Shown here piece by piece: positions 15,856-52,911 of a stretch of DNA of 64,000 bases (its first letter is position 1; each line of letters begins with the position of its first letter). Both the position numbers and the translations under genes were made by a program. The notes below the pieces were generated by a model. The model saw only the letters and a list, made by a program, of their open reading frames with translations, was not told the DNA's origin and ran no database searches. The stretch is from Cercospora beticola (Eukaryota; Ascomycota; Dothideomycetes; Mycosphaerellales; Mycosphaerellaceae). The stretch spans positions 2,480,001 through 2,544,000 of the forward strand of contig NC_088940.1 of NCBI RefSeq assembly GCF_033473495.1, written 5' to 3'.

Positions 15856-17103
15856 GATTGTCAGCGCGACAGGCGCTCGACTTCGCGAAGCGCCCTCAAT
15901 TGATACGCGACCTGGCTGCGAGATGTTACCTGCATTTCGCATTAACGAAGAGCGACTGCTCGAGAGAATGGGCCAGAGAGTTGCCATATCCGCCTTCAGG
16001 TTATGACATTGAATGATGCGTGGCAACACCCGGACAGCGCAATCATAAGGTAGCAACATCACAGTCACTCCGCCACCACGACCGTGCTTACGCCGTGGAG
16101 CAACCCCAAAATCTCAAGCAGGCTATCTGGCCCCGCTTCAAGACGCAGCTCTTGGGTTCGAGTGAACAAGATAGCATTCATAGATGGATATGGAACTCGC
16201 TGCAAGCGGAAACAACTGAAGAGGCCAGAGGCGAATAGCTACAACACAACGGCAAGACTGCTAGACCTGCAGTGCATCATGGCAGAGCCCTCGACAAGAG
16301 TGAGGCCACCAGGAATTCATCAAGCCGTCTTCGCAAAACACGTAGTGCTTCATCACAGGCCAGAATGTTCACTTTCACAAGACTGAGGATTCCCACAAAT
16401 TCACCCTCTATCACTTGATCATTAAGTTCCGCGGCTCGCAAGCTTCGACACTGCCTCGAACCTCAGCTCTCGACTTCGACTTCGACATCAACAACTCCAA
16501 CAACAACTTCAATCGATAATGCCAAACTCAACCACCTTCCACAGGCTCTTGCCTCATGTCACTGGATGAAGTTTCACCCCCCAGCGCCCTCCTACCAGCC
16601 ACGATTCACAACTGTGCTGGCGACTGCGAAGTCCATGATCCTGAACAAAGCGACTGAGAGAGGTCCCGACATCTGCGACCTCGCCCACCCTGACAGTCAC
16701 CAAGTACGTCCTACCCCCTCAGGTCAACATCGAAGGCCGTCTTCGCGTTTCCCTTCCACGAACGTGAAGTCCAGTGATGCGCCTTAATCTCCACGAGTGG
16801 AACGACGATCACTATGCGAAGCTCGGCTTAATCCGCAACATCACTGCCCAACTGCTCATCGAGTGGGTGATTCTTGGCCTCACACACTGTTTGATCTCCT
16901 TGTGAGAGCATCGAATTGTCGGCCAGCAATCCCAACTATTGGCGCTGTTCTGTCAACCTGCGACGTGCTCACCGAAGGGCAATTCGCACACTTGCAGTAC
17001 ACAACGGGCTTTGCTGATACCTGCGTCAGAGTCTCTGCTATCACGAGCTTGCATCCAAACATCCACGTGCCGAACTAGACCTAACAGTTACTTGTTCAGA
17101 CAA
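15856..17103. other. intergenic / 5' leader region with a splice-acceptor signal
   Basis: No gene is recognised. Just before the next start codon, 17080-17099 carries a CTAAC branch-like motif and TTGTTCAG, a good 3' splice site, so the downstream gene probably has a 5' leader intron. A short ATG frame of 16 codons at 16519 could be an upstream ORF. Confidence 0.45.
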
Positions 17104-20100
17104 ATGTCACGTCACGGAGGCTCGCCGATGTTGCTTGCTCGTTCCAATATGTCCTTCGTGCCTGGAAACAGCGATCCGGTGGTTGATTCTGGTATGGACG
17201 ATATGGACTGGCAGTGGGACTCAGATGATGATCAAAAAGACGGCCGGCTTACAGATTACACAGCTGATCACAAGCAAACATATTTGAGTACTCCAATAGA
17301 GCTGGATCTGCCAGATGCTTCCAGGCCACGTTTCAGCCGTCTTCGAGGAAGTCTGGACCTCAAACGGCCATACAGCACAATCGAAACGAAGGTGTCACCA
17401 GATATCACGAAGAGGAGAAAGATTAACATGCCTCCGGTCCCGCAGCGATCCTCGGCATCGTTGCTGTCCGAAAGCATAGATGTTAAACCGCAGATGCCAT
17501 TGGGAACATCTTCTGCTTCGGCTGGGCCAGCGTTTCGCGCGAAAAACAATGGGCCCTTCCAGGAGATGGATTCCGATGATTCTGACGATGAGGGGACATC
17601 TCCACCAGCGCCTGCCTCGCCGCCAAAAAATCTGTCCCACGGGCCGTCTCGTCTTTTGGAGCCGAATGCTGACAAGGCATTGGCAGCAAGTGCTGCATGG
17701 CGAAAAGAGGCGCAGAAACGCAAACAGGCTGCCCAGCAAGAGGCACTCGATAATATTTCGGAGCGGAGGAAGACGTCAGATCATCGCTTCGCATCCAGCA
17801 GTACCTTCAAAGATCGCGGAGAATCATCGCGACTGCGGCCTACAGAGACGCTGGGCTCGCGACTGCAGAGTCTGCCGGGCACGAAAGCTCGGCCATCCTC
17901 AAAGCCGCTGGCACGGGAAGTCATCACCATCGACTCTGATTCAGAAGGCTCTTCCCGACCTCACCGATCAAAGAACAGAAAACCAGTCAAGAGCTCTGCT
18001 CGCCACAAGACCTCCGAACAGCACTCGAGGTCCGATGCTCCAACCACCGGGCAGGCTGACTTTGCATCGTGGTCAGATCGACTTCAGCAACTCAAGAAGG
18101 AGCGTTCGGTTGTCGCATCTTCTACGCCACAGTCGACGATTCGGCCTAGTATTGAGATCCCAGATGCCGCTGCGAGTATTGAAAAGGCCGATGATAGACG
18201 AAAGCGAATCGATGCAGAGGGCACGAAGAACTTCGAGGAGAGAATGGCATTGGAGCTTGAACGTGGCCGTGCAGCAGAGCAGCAGCGTAAACAGCGGGAA
18301 CGCGAGGCAGATGCAGCTCTGAGGCATCAACGTGAGGAAGAAACCCGAGCCAAACGAGAACAGGCGTCCAAAGCCCGACAAGCTGCAATTGAACTCAAGC
18401 GGCAGGAAGAACAAGAGAGACAGCGCAAGCAGGAGGCAGACGATAAACTTAACAAAGATCTCGCAGACCAATTGCGAAGAACACGCGAAGATAACATCAA
18501 GAAGAAGGCAGAGGCAGACGCCAAACGCCAGAGAGAGAAAGTTGAGGAGGAGCAGCGGCGAGACGCAGAGCGCACACGCTCGATCGAGCAGAAGAAAGCC
18601 GAGCTGGCGAAGCGTTCGTCGATTCTAGACGAGAAAGCTCAGAAGCAGAGGGATGAGCGGATCCGGCAGAAACAGGAGCGCGCAGCTCGCAACAGGCAGG
18701 CCGAGCAAGAAGACAACAATGTCGATGAGCTGATTGTTGAGGCAGCTCCGAGGCCAAAGTACAGAAGTGTCACGGCCACTGCACGGGGCTTGGAGCTCAG
18801 CAGCAAGCTGGTAGCTGAGCAAGACGACGTGGACACTGACACATACACACCTACGCCGACTCTGGCATCGAAACCTCTCGCCCTTAACAGCGCAGCCGGT
18901 GTCAAAGCAGTCGAGTCGGCATCGAGACACGCTGGTGCCAATTCTGCTCGCACTGGCCATGATCGCGTGCTGGGCGAGATCCTTGACGAGGACGCGAAGC
19001 TAGTGCAGTGGAAAGATACTGGTGACCAGTGGCCGGTCATTGTTGAGAAGTACGAAAAGCTCACTGGAAACAAGCGCGCTGACAGCACTCTGCGCCAACG
19101 GTACAGACAGGTCAGCAGAGCTCTGAACGAGGCTAATGTAGATCCCATGCTCAGACAGCGCATGTCCAGAGGGGATGAAGACGCGCGGCGGCAAGTCAAT
19201 ATCAAGGTTCACAGGCAGTGGCCACCTCCGGCAAAAGACTTCTCAGGCAGGGACGTACCCAAAGGACCAAACATTAAACTCATTAGGCGTCAGATACCTC
19301 AGGACTCACTTCCAGCGCCTGGAGAAATCCTGCCCATTGATGCGCTACTCGTACGTTGGCGTCGGGACAAAATGGCCTGGTCCAATGTCATACAGAACTA
19401 CGAGAGTATTACAGGCGTGCGAAAGAGCGAGCCTACGCTAAGAGTTCGATTCAATGAGCTGGACAGATCTCTCGAAGATGCCAACGTGTTCCACGATGAA
19501 ATCGAAGATCTATCCAACGACGCCCCAGGCGCGAGAGCCAAAGTCAATGGCAAAGTCTGGCAGGTCTGGCCACCAGTGATCAAGACTCAACATACACCAC
19601 GCACAGAAACTCCAGAGGCAAGATTTCGGGGAAGACCGCCTAAAGTTGGCCCCTTTGGTTCTGGATCTGGACCGCAGCGCCTGGAACCGCTCTCTCGTCC
19701 TGCTGTTACCATTCAGCCACTGCTGCAACTCAATGAGGATTCAGACACCGAGGACTCCGATCCGCGGCCGAGACCTCGAATCGGAGGAAAGACGATTAAC
19801 AACGAAGTCTTCGGCACCTTCATGCAACCTCGGGATGGCGATGATGACGGCTCGAGCTCTACCGATGGATACGAAACTGACTTCGATGAGAACAACCCCG
19901 CGGACTTTTACTATTTTATATGGCGCGTCTACAGACGAGAGTGTATCTTTGAAGACGAACAGGGAAAGGGCGACATCAGAAGGAGTGAATGGCGAGATTG
20001 TGGCAAGACGTACGAGAACCTTGATGAAGCAAACCAGGCCGCAGAAGCAGAAACAAAATTGGTCCTTCCCGGTGGTCTGGACTTCCGAAATGTCAGCTTT

Positions 20101-20643
20101 TCCGCAGACAGGAAGGTCCGTGACGATGGCTGCCATCGTTACACACTCAGCAGCCACAAAGTCGGCACCCTCCACGTCAAAGTCAAGAGGCATGCGCGTC
20201 TGCCCTCAGAACGGATACCTCCAAAGAGCAAAGGAGGTTGGCTTGCTGCCATTCAATACTCCGTCAAGGTACGTGAAGTGACGACAAAGAGAATCTTCGA
20301 CGAAGCCCTCCAACAGACCACGCTGAAGGAGAAAGATTGGTGCGACGAGATAGATGGCACATCAACATCCTTCATCGACCACGCAAATTCGCGTGCCGCG
20401 GATATTTTCGCCGGAAAAATCCTCGATAAGACAGTGGACCTCCGACACAACTCAATCGTCAAAGCCCGGAAGGTGGAGGAGTTGTTGCAGAACATGAAGT
20501 GGGACGAACACCTAGGGGCACCGAAGTTCTATGGCAAGCACGTGTTTCCAGGGAACGAGAAAGTGTTGGAGGTTTGGACAAAGGTCAACTTGGTGAATGG
20601 ACCAAGGAATCATTTCCAAATCAGCAAGGCGAGTGAAGAATAA
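17104..20643 (+). CDS. large coiled-coil protein with two Myb/SANT-like repeats, function unknown
   Basis: A single open frame of 1,179 residues from ATG 17104. The N-terminal third is disordered, acidic and Ser-rich, with MDDMDWQWDSDDD near the start and a KRRK basic cluster. About 357-535 is a Glu/Arg/Lys/Gln-rich long helix or coiled coil. Two related modules follow (about 624-700 and 740-815). Each begins GEIL..DA.LV.W, has a conserved Trp and Tyr, then TLR.R(Y/F) and an ending with VWPP or QWPP, spaced like Myb/SANT helices. The C-terminal about 250 residues form a globular-looking unit (FYYFIWRVYRREC ... WLAAIQYSVKVREVT). I do not recognise a named family. A nuclear DNA- or chromatin-associated role is only an inference from the modules and basic clusters. 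The frame remains open upstream to 16939 without an ATG. Confidence 0.85.
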   Translation: MSRHGGSPMLLARSNMSFVPGNSDPVVDSGMDDMDWQWDSDDDQKDGRLTDYTADHKQTYLSTPIELDLPDASRPRFSRLRGSLDLKRPYSTIETKVSPDITKRRKINMPPVPQRSSASLLSESIDVKPQMPLGTSSASAGPAFRAKNNGPFQEMDSDDSDDEGTSPPAPASPPKNLSHGPSRLLEPNADKALAASAAWRKEAQKRKQAAQQEALDNISERRKTSDHRFASSSTFKDRGESSRLRPTETLGSRLQSLPGTKARPSSKPLAREVITIDSDSEGSSRPHRSKNRKPVKSSARHKTSEQHSRSDAPTTGQADFASWSDRLQQLKKERSVVASSTPQSTIRPSIEIPDAAASIEKADDRRKRIDAEGTKNFEERMALELERGRAAEQQRKQREREADAALRHQREEETRAKREQASKARQAAIELKRQEEQERQRKQEADDKLNKDLADQLRRTREDNIKKKAEADAKRQREKVEEEQRRDAERTRSIEQKKAELAKRSSILDEKAQKQRDERIRQKQERAARNRQAEQEDNNVDELIVEAAPRPKYRSVTATARGLELSSKLVAEQDDVDTDTYTPTPTLASKPLALNSAAGVKAVESASRHAGANSARTGHDRVLGEILDEDAKLVQWKDTGDQWPVIVEKYEKLTGNKRADSTLRQRYRQVSRALNEANVDPMLRQRMSRGDEDARRQVNIKVHRQWPPPAKDFSGRDVPKGPNIKLIRRQIPQDSLPAPGEILPIDALLVRWRRDKMAWSNVIQNYESITGVRKSEPTLRVRFNELDRSLEDANVFHDEIEDLSNDAPGARAKVNGKVWQVWPPVIKTQHTPRTETPEARFRGRPPKVGPFGSGSGPQRLEPLSRPAVTIQPLLQLNEDSDTEDSDPRPRPRIGGKTINNEVFGTFMQPRDGDDDGSSSTDGYETDFDENNPADFYYFIWRVYRRECIFEDEQGKGDIRRSEWRDCGKTYENLDEANQAAEAETKLVLPGGLDFRNVSFSADRKVRDDGCHRYTLSSHKVGTLHVKVKRHARLPSERIPPKSKGGWLAAIQYSVKVREVTTKRIFDEALQQTTLKEKDWCDEIDGTSTSFIDHANSRAADIFAGKILDKTVDLRHNSIVKARKVEELLQNMKWDEHLGAPKFYGKHVFPGNEKVLEVWTKVNLVNGPRNHFQISKASEE

Positions 20644-50010: not shown

Positions 50011-50550
50011 ATGTTCGTCCCATTTGAGAGCAACAACAGCGACGGCACTCCATCTCCACCCGGCCGCAACGACAGCGAAGTTCCCGCCCCAGCTGAGGCA
50101 CCGGTCCAGCTGCAAATCACCTTCCGCCACAACCGCGGCTTCGAGCAGGCGTTCAAATTGAAGAAGACCACCAGCATCGTCAAGGCCATGGTGAGCCATC
50201 CGTTCACGCCCACCCTTTGAACCAGCATTTCCACTGACCACCTCTCAGGATGCCTTCAGCGCCAAGATGGAGCGTCCTCGCAACCAACTGCGCTTCCTCA
50301 TTGATGGTCATCGCATTACCGATGGCACTGTGGAAGATGTGAGTCGAATCATTTCAACTGGGCTCACGGGTAAGAATGCTGACTTGACACACAGAACGAG
50401 CTGGAGGACGGAGATCAGGTGGATGTTCACGAGGAGCAGTTTGGAGGCGGCGATGGCTGTTGTGGTGGCAAATGTCACTGCGGTGACAAGAACTGCGACG
50501 GAAAGTGCTGCAGTGGCAAGGGAGGTTGTGGTGGAGGAAAGGGCAAGTGA
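50011..50550 (+). CDS. SUMO-like protein with a cysteine-rich, metallothionein-like C-terminal tail
   Basis: Exons 50011-50190, 50249-50338 and 50395-50550 (introns 58 and 56 bp) give 141 residues. Residues 1-32 are a flexible Ser/Pro/Glu leader. Residues 33-108 read as a ubiquitin-like beta-grasp of SUMO type: VQLQITFRHNRGFEQAFKLK, IVKAMDAFSAKMERPRNQLR, FLIDGHRITDGTVEDNELED, GDQVDVHEEQFGGG. Ordinary SUMO ends Gln-x-Gly-Gly, followed by a few residues removed by an Ulp protease. Here the glycines are followed by about 30 residues with eight Cys, Gly and Lys, in CCGGKCHC and CDGKCC spacings like metallothioneins. The domain is divergent from canonical SUMO, so it is probably a second SUMO-like gene rather than the cell's main SUMO. 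An intron-like signal starts at or beside the stop (see findings); using it would change only the last residue or two. Confidence 0.82.
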
Positions 50551-50918: not shown

Positions 50919-51693
50919 CTACTCCTCAAGATCCATAACCAACTCATCCTCCACATCACGAGCATACCTCGTAGCGCCACAAGCCTTCGCGCGAACAGCG
51001 CGAATGCTTCGGATGGAGTAGTCTGGTTTGCTTGGGTTGTACGAAGCCACAAGGTTCGAAGCCTGTTGGAAGTAGCCATCGATAGCAGGCAGGACGTACT
51101 CGCAGCGATCATCGTTGATCTCTTGTGCAATCTGCTGGATGGTCTTGCAGTCTCTTCGCCACTTCTTGTTCTTGAGTTCTTCTAGACGGTCCTTGACATT
51201 CTGGCCGTAGGATCCCTCGCCGGTCCTGTTTTCAGTTGTCAGCGGCTGATGTCGCATAGTATTGGGTTGTGACAGTAGATTGTACTTACCATGTACCATT
51301 ACCCTGCTCAGTTCCATTGCTGCCGTTGCTGCCATTGCTACCGTTCTTTCCCGCGAGGTATGAGTCCAAGACGGCCTTGTTGCCCCAAGTGGGAGCAGTG
51401 GACGAGTACTCAGCAAGCCAGGCAAGTTTGGCGGCTTTGGTGAATTCGGCGTCCGAACGGAAATTCTTCTTCGCAATGTTGTCGAGGAATGTTGATACGA
51501 TTGCGGTGTCCCCATACCAGTCCTTCACGGTATACTTGATGATCTGGACATCTGTGAGGGACGCAAAGGCTGCCGGAACAGCCTCTGGGTCGGCCTCAGG
51601 GAGAGCTTCTGGCACGGCTTCTGGGTCTGGGATGGCGAGAGAAGTGACAGTGGTGGCAAAGAGGCCGGCAGCAAGGGCAGAGAGGAACTTCAT
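50919..51693 (-). CDS. secreted protein of unknown function with N-glycosylation sequon array
   Basis: Exons 51693-51290 and 51225-50919 (64 bp intron) give 236 residues. Signal peptide 1-19 (MKFLSALAAGLFATTVTSLA). A Pro/Glu/Ala-rich prosegment follows (PEAVPEALPEADPEAV), then a helical domain with KYTVKDWYGDTAIVSTFLDN and KAAKLAWLAEYSSTAPTWGN. Near 120-135 is an array of NGS/NGT units (NGSNGSNGSNGTEQGNGT) giving about five adjacent N-glycosylation sequons. The second exon continues W|TGEGSYGQNVKDRLEELKN and ends acidic (DVEDELVMDLEE). Three Cys occur, all in the C-terminal half. I recognise no family; a wall-associated or extracellular role is an inference from secretion and glycosylation sites. 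Confidence 0.82.
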
Positions 51694-52911
51694 CTTGTCG
51701 GCGCAAATTGTCTAGTGGCGAGACTTGAATTTACGAGCGAATGTTGGAAGAGATGTCTTGCTGGCTTCTGGTGGACGTTGAGAGGAAGCCACAGTGCATA
51801 TCTATATGTACCCCTATGGCTTCCACATAATTTGTCGCCATGTCGCGTGCACGTGGCTTTTGTGTTGCGCCCGAAAGCCACTCATGACAGCTAAACGTGG
51901 TAGCCCAGCTGAAAAGGTGAAGTAGACAACACGGAGACCGCGAAAAGACAAGCTTGTGGCGTTGAGCCAGGACAGGTAGAGCTCTTTCTGGACGTCGGAC
52001 ATTGCGCGCGAAGCAAGCCACATGCAGTCTGGCCAAGTAGTTTCGGATCGCGGAAAGTCAAGTATACGATGCCGGGCACTCGGGAGCGAGGGTCCTTTCT
52101 GACGCTTCCTCGAGGCGTGAAAAGTGAGGCATTTCTCAAAACCTCACGCATAGAGATGCCCGAATGTGAGAGCGAAAGAATGCATCTTGACTGCAATTAT
52201 GGAAGATCTTCAAGTTTGCATATCGAAACTGTGAAGACGGAAGTGCAACCGAGGCCTCGGGACGCTAAGCGCTAACGTGGTAAATCCTGTTTCACATGCC
52301 ACGTGGAGAGTGTTCTGGCTCTTCTTGGCAACATCCAGACGAGCTGTGGCTTGCACCTTAGCAGCACATGGCTTTCGAGCCGCAAGGTTTGATATGCTTT
52401 GCACGCTGGCACCGCTGAACTCTGATCGAATTGATGGGAATGAGACTCACCTCCTCGTGGGCGAAGTGTGCCCCTGCGCTGATTTTGCATACGCCCCGAG
52501 ACCTTGTGCCGAGCGAGTTCTTGTACTCAGAGATATATACAGCATCGAAAGCTGTTGCCCGTGTGGCGCCTCCAACAAGGACGGCAAAATGGGATGCAAA
52601 CAGCTCTCCGCATCGAAGCCAGTCAAGCACGTAATGTCGATGTGATCTCAGCTAGTGTGTAGCTTTTCCGCGGTATACTTGATGCGCTGTGATAAGTCGC
52701 ATCACTGGCCAACAGCCATGGAAGCAAGCGCCATGTGGCGCATAGCAAGGAGTCATGCGAGATCCGAATCCTGCTGGCGCATAGGTCTCGCCCGAGATGC
52801 TCGCGTCTCGTATGTGCTCAACTACAGCCCCAATGTGTCCGCGCCCTGAGATTTGCCTTCCTGCTTCGGTCTTGCTGGTGCAATTGCTGACAAGGTCGGC
52901 TTCAAAAGGTC
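51694..52911. other. intergenic region
   Basis: 1.2 kb. Overlapping frames of about 90-120 codons occur at 52277-52645 (plus) and 52358-52630 (minus); neither has a domain, signal or helix pattern that I can support. Confidence 0.45.

Follow-up and report, generated by a model that had tools for sequence, protein, structure and literature searches.

A second, divergent SUMO-type protein of Cercospora beticola with a conserved cysteine-rich tail past its Gly-Gly

Positions 50011-50550 on the forward strand of a 64,000-nucleotide stretch of Cercospora beticola DNA (contig NC_088940.1, positions 2,480,001 to 2,544,000; hereafter the window) encode a SUMO-type Ubl whose Gly-Gly is followed by a short tail with eight cysteines. 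Is this fusion real, and is the tail a precursor extension that a protease would release as a second product, or a lasting part of the protein?

The gene is read in three exons, which join in frame to encode 141 residues. Exon 1 (50011..50190) holds the start codon, the poorly conserved N-terminal region (residues 1-30) and the first Ubl strands up to KAM60; exon 2 (50249-50338) encodes Ubl residues 61-90, and exon 3 (50395-50550) contains the end of the Ubl, Gly-Gly, the Cys-rich tail and the stop codon. Intron 1 (50191-50248, 58 bp) and intron 2 (50339-50394, 56 bp) are both of phase 0, run from GT to AG and contain, by eye, a CTGAC branch-like motif, so that the two canonical introns proposed in the earlier note, which was made from the letters alone, were confirmed. 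No earlier ATG lies in the open frame upstream of 50011, and the gene carries no frame damage. The unspliced ORFs of two relatives, P0004 and P0005, continue beyond the same KAM at which intron 1 stands. The spliced translation shows the SUMO-type domain ending in EEQFGGG and then the eight-Cys tail, as the same note had read it. The codons of Gly107-Gly108 (50443..50448) align with Gly97-Gly98 of yeast Smt3, where mature Smt3 ends, and the 32-residue tail (residues 110-141) is encoded at 50452..50547. A genome search with the tail sequence matched the gene itself only, and a second genomic copy as the source of the tail was rejected.

The same architecture was found in other species. A first protein search yielded five proteins out of 36 candidates, of which three, from Cercospora kikuchii (96% identical), C. 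zeina and Septoria linicola, are complete homologues and all bear the tail (3/3), while the other two are unspliced fragments; a word search from residues 94-141 of the C. kikuchii protein (P0001) returned the same three species from 6 candidates. These homologues bear out the earlier argument against an assembly artefact, and they contradict the half of the earlier note's refuting condition under which sister species would lack a tailed homologue. A profile search, scored on those 7982 candidates with the most words in common, gave 39 proteins, and three of them carry the eight-Cys tail in frame. Another, P0035, has a seven-Cys variant after EEQFGG, which suggests that the tail may vary in further lineages; the exon-3-like segment ahead of the P0035 tail appears to be duplicated. 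In P0005, aligned by eye, the tail region is read in another frame, and its letters permit Cys at all eight Cys positions, force or permit Gly-Gly-Gly-Asp-Gly ahead of Cys, and rule out Lys before the third Cys. The other 34 of the 39 show no such tail, and many are exon fragments that stop short of Gly-Gly and are hence uninformative.

Identity between the window protein and that of S. linicola is 10/24 in the N-terminal region, 54/74 in the Ubl and 31/32 in the tail (Ubl versus tail, Fisher p = 0.0033). The corresponding values are 52/74 and 31/32 for C. zeina versus S. linicola (p = 0.0017), 61/74 and 30/32 for the window versus C. zeina (p = 0.22), and 72/74 and 32/32 for the window versus C. 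kikuchii (p = 1), the four comparisons sharing lineages and not being independent. Judged from these alignments, the tail is under protein-level constraint at least as strong as that on the Ubl.

The Ubl is a SUMO-type beta-grasp domain. Residues 35-101 scored 36.8 bits with Pfam Rad60-SLD, against a cut-off of 23.8 (E 3.6e-9), and a phmmer search of the PDB sequences found constructs of SUMO2 and Smt3, with E 3.2e-14 for the best. An AlphaFold2 model of P0001, standing in for the window protein and built with 26 relatives, had a mean pLDDT of 70.9, with 85-89 in the Ubl blocks (residues 31-100), low values at the N-terminus and 48-58 in the tail blocks from 111 on. Foldseek matched this model best to SUMO1 and Smt3 in the PDB (best E 1.7e-8), with a TM over the target of 0.86-0.91 in the first five matches. 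AlphaFold2 models no metals and low pLDDT is not proof of disorder; the low-confidence tail could be accessible.

The genome also contains a separate canonical SUMO gene, whose existence the earlier note had left to be checked. Rad60-SLD gave 11 matches in the 36.07 Mb, 10-contig genome, of which eight were examined; the search ran exon by exon, and the window gene is therefore absent from the 11. On reading of the translations, polyubiquitin repeats account for L001, L002 and L004, and ubiquitin-ribosomal fusions for L005 and L007; L006 encodes a Rad60/Esc2-like protein and L008 a Dsk2-like one. The remaining one, L003 (G000:C1:1988927-1989082; L003:1382-1731; reverse strand), is the canonical SUMO, with a spliced end of ...VHQEQIGGC and a stop. 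Its precursor tail is one residue long: EQIGG, Cys, stop. The canonical SUMO intron coincides in alignment position and phase with intron 2 of the window gene, which supports the descent of the latter from a SUMO gene. The genome further has five Peptidase_C48 matches, with E 1.3e-29 for the best. Since the genome holds both a separate canonical SUMO gene and C48 proteases, the window gene represents a second, divergent paralogue of SUMO in Mycosphaerellaceae, in which the extension was gained, or from whose relatives it was lost.

A tree of 23 rows was built from the window Ubl, the canonical SUMO and, with fragments and near-copies excluded, 19 proteins out of the 39 listed, two of these 19 entering as two domains; support is good for 4 of its 20 inner branches. 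The four tail-bearing proteins group with Pseudocercospora (98/95). This group joins Vermiconidia, Elasticomyces and Hortaea (96/94), and the canonical SUMO of the genome falls elsewhere in the tree. Four untailed members of the clade, Pseudocercospora musae (GGES), Vermiconidia (GGGWMGE), Elasticomyces (GGGEASQ) and Hortaea (GGHMI), terminate 2-5 residues past Gly-Gly, and the tail therefore occupies the normal site of a removable precursor tail. P. musae belongs to Mycosphaerellaceae, as do Cercospora and Septoria. A single gain of the tail would be the simplest reading, with weak support (71/43) for the branch that holds the tail-bearing group alone; a one-residue deletion at Smt3 A74, present in 4/4 tail-bearing and 0/4 untailed clade members, would fit a single origin. 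P0006 (Tothia fuscella), P0009 and P0010 (JGI) have two tandem SUMO-type domains, each ending in EQxGG, and are possibly poly-SUMO precursors or tandem SUMO-like proteins.

How much of SUMO function the Ubl has kept was read from the Smt3 contacts published in PMC5319795, where the contact listed as N85 is Asp in the Smt3 numbering used here. In the multiple alignment, the window Ubl and the canonical SUMO are identical to Smt3 at 6/9 and 7/9 E1 contacts, 10/18 and 13/18 Ulp contacts, 5/11 (with Gln at I35) and 9/11 positions of the SIM groove, 5/15 and 9/15 of the E2 surface, and 8/26 and 11/26 positions outside all contact lists, the lists overlapping and the counts being small. The E1 and Ulp sides of the window Ubl thus look better kept than its SIM and E2 sides. 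Because the SIM groove and E2 surface are weaker than in the canonical SUMO, full SUMO function of the window Ubl appears doubtful. Smt3 R64, F65, L66, R71, G97 and G98 are identical in 4/4 tail-bearing and 4/4 untailed clade members, and the D68 position is D or E in all of these; Gly-Gly is retained in 4/4 full-tail sequences. A lethal D30R-like Arg at Smt3 D30 appeared in the pairwise alignment only and lost its weight after the multiple alignment, in which this position is His in the window protein, C. kikuchii and C. zeina and Asp in S. linicola.

The tail after ...HEEQFGGG reads DGCCGGKCHCGDKNCDGKCCSGKGGCGGGKGK, with eight Cys among 32 residues, one His and no Phe, Tyr or Trp; it is rich in Lys as well as in Cys. 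Its composition is of the metallothionein type, being short, about one quarter Cys, clustered as CC, CxC and CxxC, and poor in aromatic residues. A 41-residue tail piece had no Pfam or NCBIfam match up to E 10, and the tail had no match among PDB sequences. Assignment to a described metallothionein or zinc family, having no support in Pfam, NCBIfam or PDB, was rejected; the term metallothionein-like used at first sight holds for Cys density and spacing and lacks a sequence match in these three databases. Across the six reading frames of the window, four places, the tail included, have at least eight Cys within 32 codons, and the Cys density by itself is not beyond chance. The tail is placed above chance by the shared architecture in three further species, together with conservation at least matching that of the domain. 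The tail is probably a small thiol-rich peptide that binds Cu(I) or Zn. Fungal copper metallothioneins of the Neurospora and Agaricus type have about 25-35 residues, are Gly- and Cys-rich and contain CxC motifs. The tail resembles them in length, in Gly and Cys richness and in CxC, and differs in its CC pairs and in the fused Ubl.

PF12749 metallothionein had no match in the genome, and none in control genomes as well, which makes this result uninformative; a standalone PF12809 metallothionein was rejected, as the one match (17.7 bits) was below the cut-off of 27 and its frame reads as a longer Cys-containing protein. The 344 bp upstream of the gene contained three matches over six metal-response patterns (Ace1-like, one per strand, and one MRE-like) versus about 1.3 expected, too few to weigh either way. 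No metal-homeostasis cluster was seen in 14 of the 34 long ORFs of the window and three frames near the gene, one of which overlaps a listed long ORF; the ORFs scanned nearby include DUF7704, MBOAT, PP4R3, an amino-acid permease, an MFS transporter and YL1. Elsewhere in the window, an open frame at 51286-51711 on the reverse strand has a signal-peptide-like start, a Gly-Ser-Asn repeat and no Pfam match up to E 0.1, and a 1245-codon open frame at 16906-20640 on the forward strand, with no Pfam match at E 1e-5, overlaps a strong AT skew (0.289 in 18001-20000).

To what we consider the leading reading we assign a probability of about 0.48: the protein is a precursor, and a Ulp-type protease separates its SUMO-like modifier from its metallothionein-like peptide. 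A Ulp-type (C48) protease would cut past Gly108 and free, in equal amounts, a SUMO-like modifier that could be conjugated or bind SIMs and a 33-residue metallothionein-like peptide (Gly109 and the 32-residue tail). The Ubl might serve the short Cys-rich peptide as a folding and expression partner, and release would be analogous to that of the ribosomal protein from the Fubi-S30 and ubiquitin-S27a precursors. Retention of Gly-Gly and of several Ulp-contact residues favours cleavage over a permanent fusion, as far as sequence can tell. Fubi-S30 provides a precedent for maturation of a Ubl fusion by proteolysis (PMC10611586). However, the precursor tails of human SUMO2/3 are incompatible with Ulp1 according to PMC5319795, so that cleavage is tail-dependent and not to be assumed. 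The Smt3 R93 position, Gln in the canonical SUMO, is Glu in the window gene, which would count against Ulp cleavage; PMC5319795 lists yeast smt3 R93E, under Ulp, among its conditional alleles.

This Glu is likewise in favour of a rather unlikely alternative, in which the tail stays uncut. The protein would then be an unconjugated SUMO-like adaptor, loaded with metal, that delivers a metal cluster to partners or that uses its tail as a switch through the metal-bound or oxidised state. A near-invariant tail would suit such an adaptor, as would the loss of several SIM and E2 surface identities from the Ubl that carries it, but the invariant Gly-Gly and several Ulp and E1 contacts would be needless in a Ubl that is not conjugated.

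A special case of cleavage is one in which the metal or redox state of the eight cysteines decides protease access, so that the second SUMO would respond to copper, zinc or oxidants. The first tail Cys is only the fourth residue past Gly108, and the SUMO precursor tail influences Ulp1 processing according to PMC5319795; we nevertheless regard such gating as improbable.

We take a dimmer view still of the tail as a structural zinc motif, such as a small zinc knot for nucleic-acid or protein binding, rather than a metallothionein. Its richness in both Lys and Cys and the precedent of ubiquitin-S27a, a Ubl fused to a Cys-containing protein, speak for a zinc knot, whereas the CC, CxC and Gly-rich spacing with no aromatic or aliphatic core reads unlike a folded zinc finger, and the missing Pfam match noted above points the same way. 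That the tail is spliced out, or that the gene is silent and decaying, is hardly credible, given one undamaged exon from Gly-Gly to stop, recorded proteins of three other species with the same tail, and a tail that is the most conserved part versus S. linicola; its high conservation and its presence in these species rule out artefact or read-through.

Returning to the proposed precursor, we compared it with known systems. Like the SUMO precursors (yeast Smt3, human SUMO1-3), the window protein has a beta-grasp fold, an EQxGG end, an extension past Gly-Gly, several conserved Ulp and E1 contacts and an intron position in common with the canonical SUMO of the genome, from which the gene is distinct. 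Unlike them, it has a 33-residue eight-Cys extension instead of a few residues, and weaker SIM and E2 surfaces. Ubiquitin-S27a and ubiquitin-L40 are precursors in which a Ubl is fused to a second protein and which mature by proteolysis. As in these and in Fubi-S30, a conserved second polypeptide directly follows the Gly-Gly of the Ubl here, which gives the window gene the layout of a Ubl-fusion precursor; the partner, however, is a short Cys-rich peptide and not a ribosomal protein, and the Ubl is of the SUMO type. SlyD-type peptidyl-prolyl isomerases carry a C-terminal Cys/His-rich metal-binding tail, and the window protein resembles them as a small folded domain with a C-terminal tail, metal-binding in SlyD and putatively so here. 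The domains are unrelated and no homology is claimed; P0001 matched the SlyD-type NCBIfam far below threshold (14.6 bits versus a cut-off of 174), probably through composition. No paper among the open-licence PMC literature matches listed describes a SUMO-type Ubl fused to a Cys-rich tail. Precursors that join a Ubl to a second protein are already known, and what is apparently new here is the pairing of a Ubl of the SUMO type and a Cys-rich tail.

Taken together, the fusion is real, conserved and apparently undescribed. We tentatively propose, with less confidence than we place in cleavage as such, that a dedicated second SUMO releases a metallothionein 1:1, possibly in a metal-gated manner, and ties SUMO-type signaling to metal status in Mycosphaerellaceae. 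The tails of SUMO precursors are, in the usual description, short and throw-away, and this lineage has retained a second SUMO with the strongest sequence constraint on its tail. If the tail is cut, the protein would parallel, with a SUMO-type Ubl, the fusions of ubiquitin and Fubi to ribosomal proteins, and a metal-binding peptide would have gained a Ubl carrier; if it is uncut, the protein would be a SUMO-like adaptor that carries metal.
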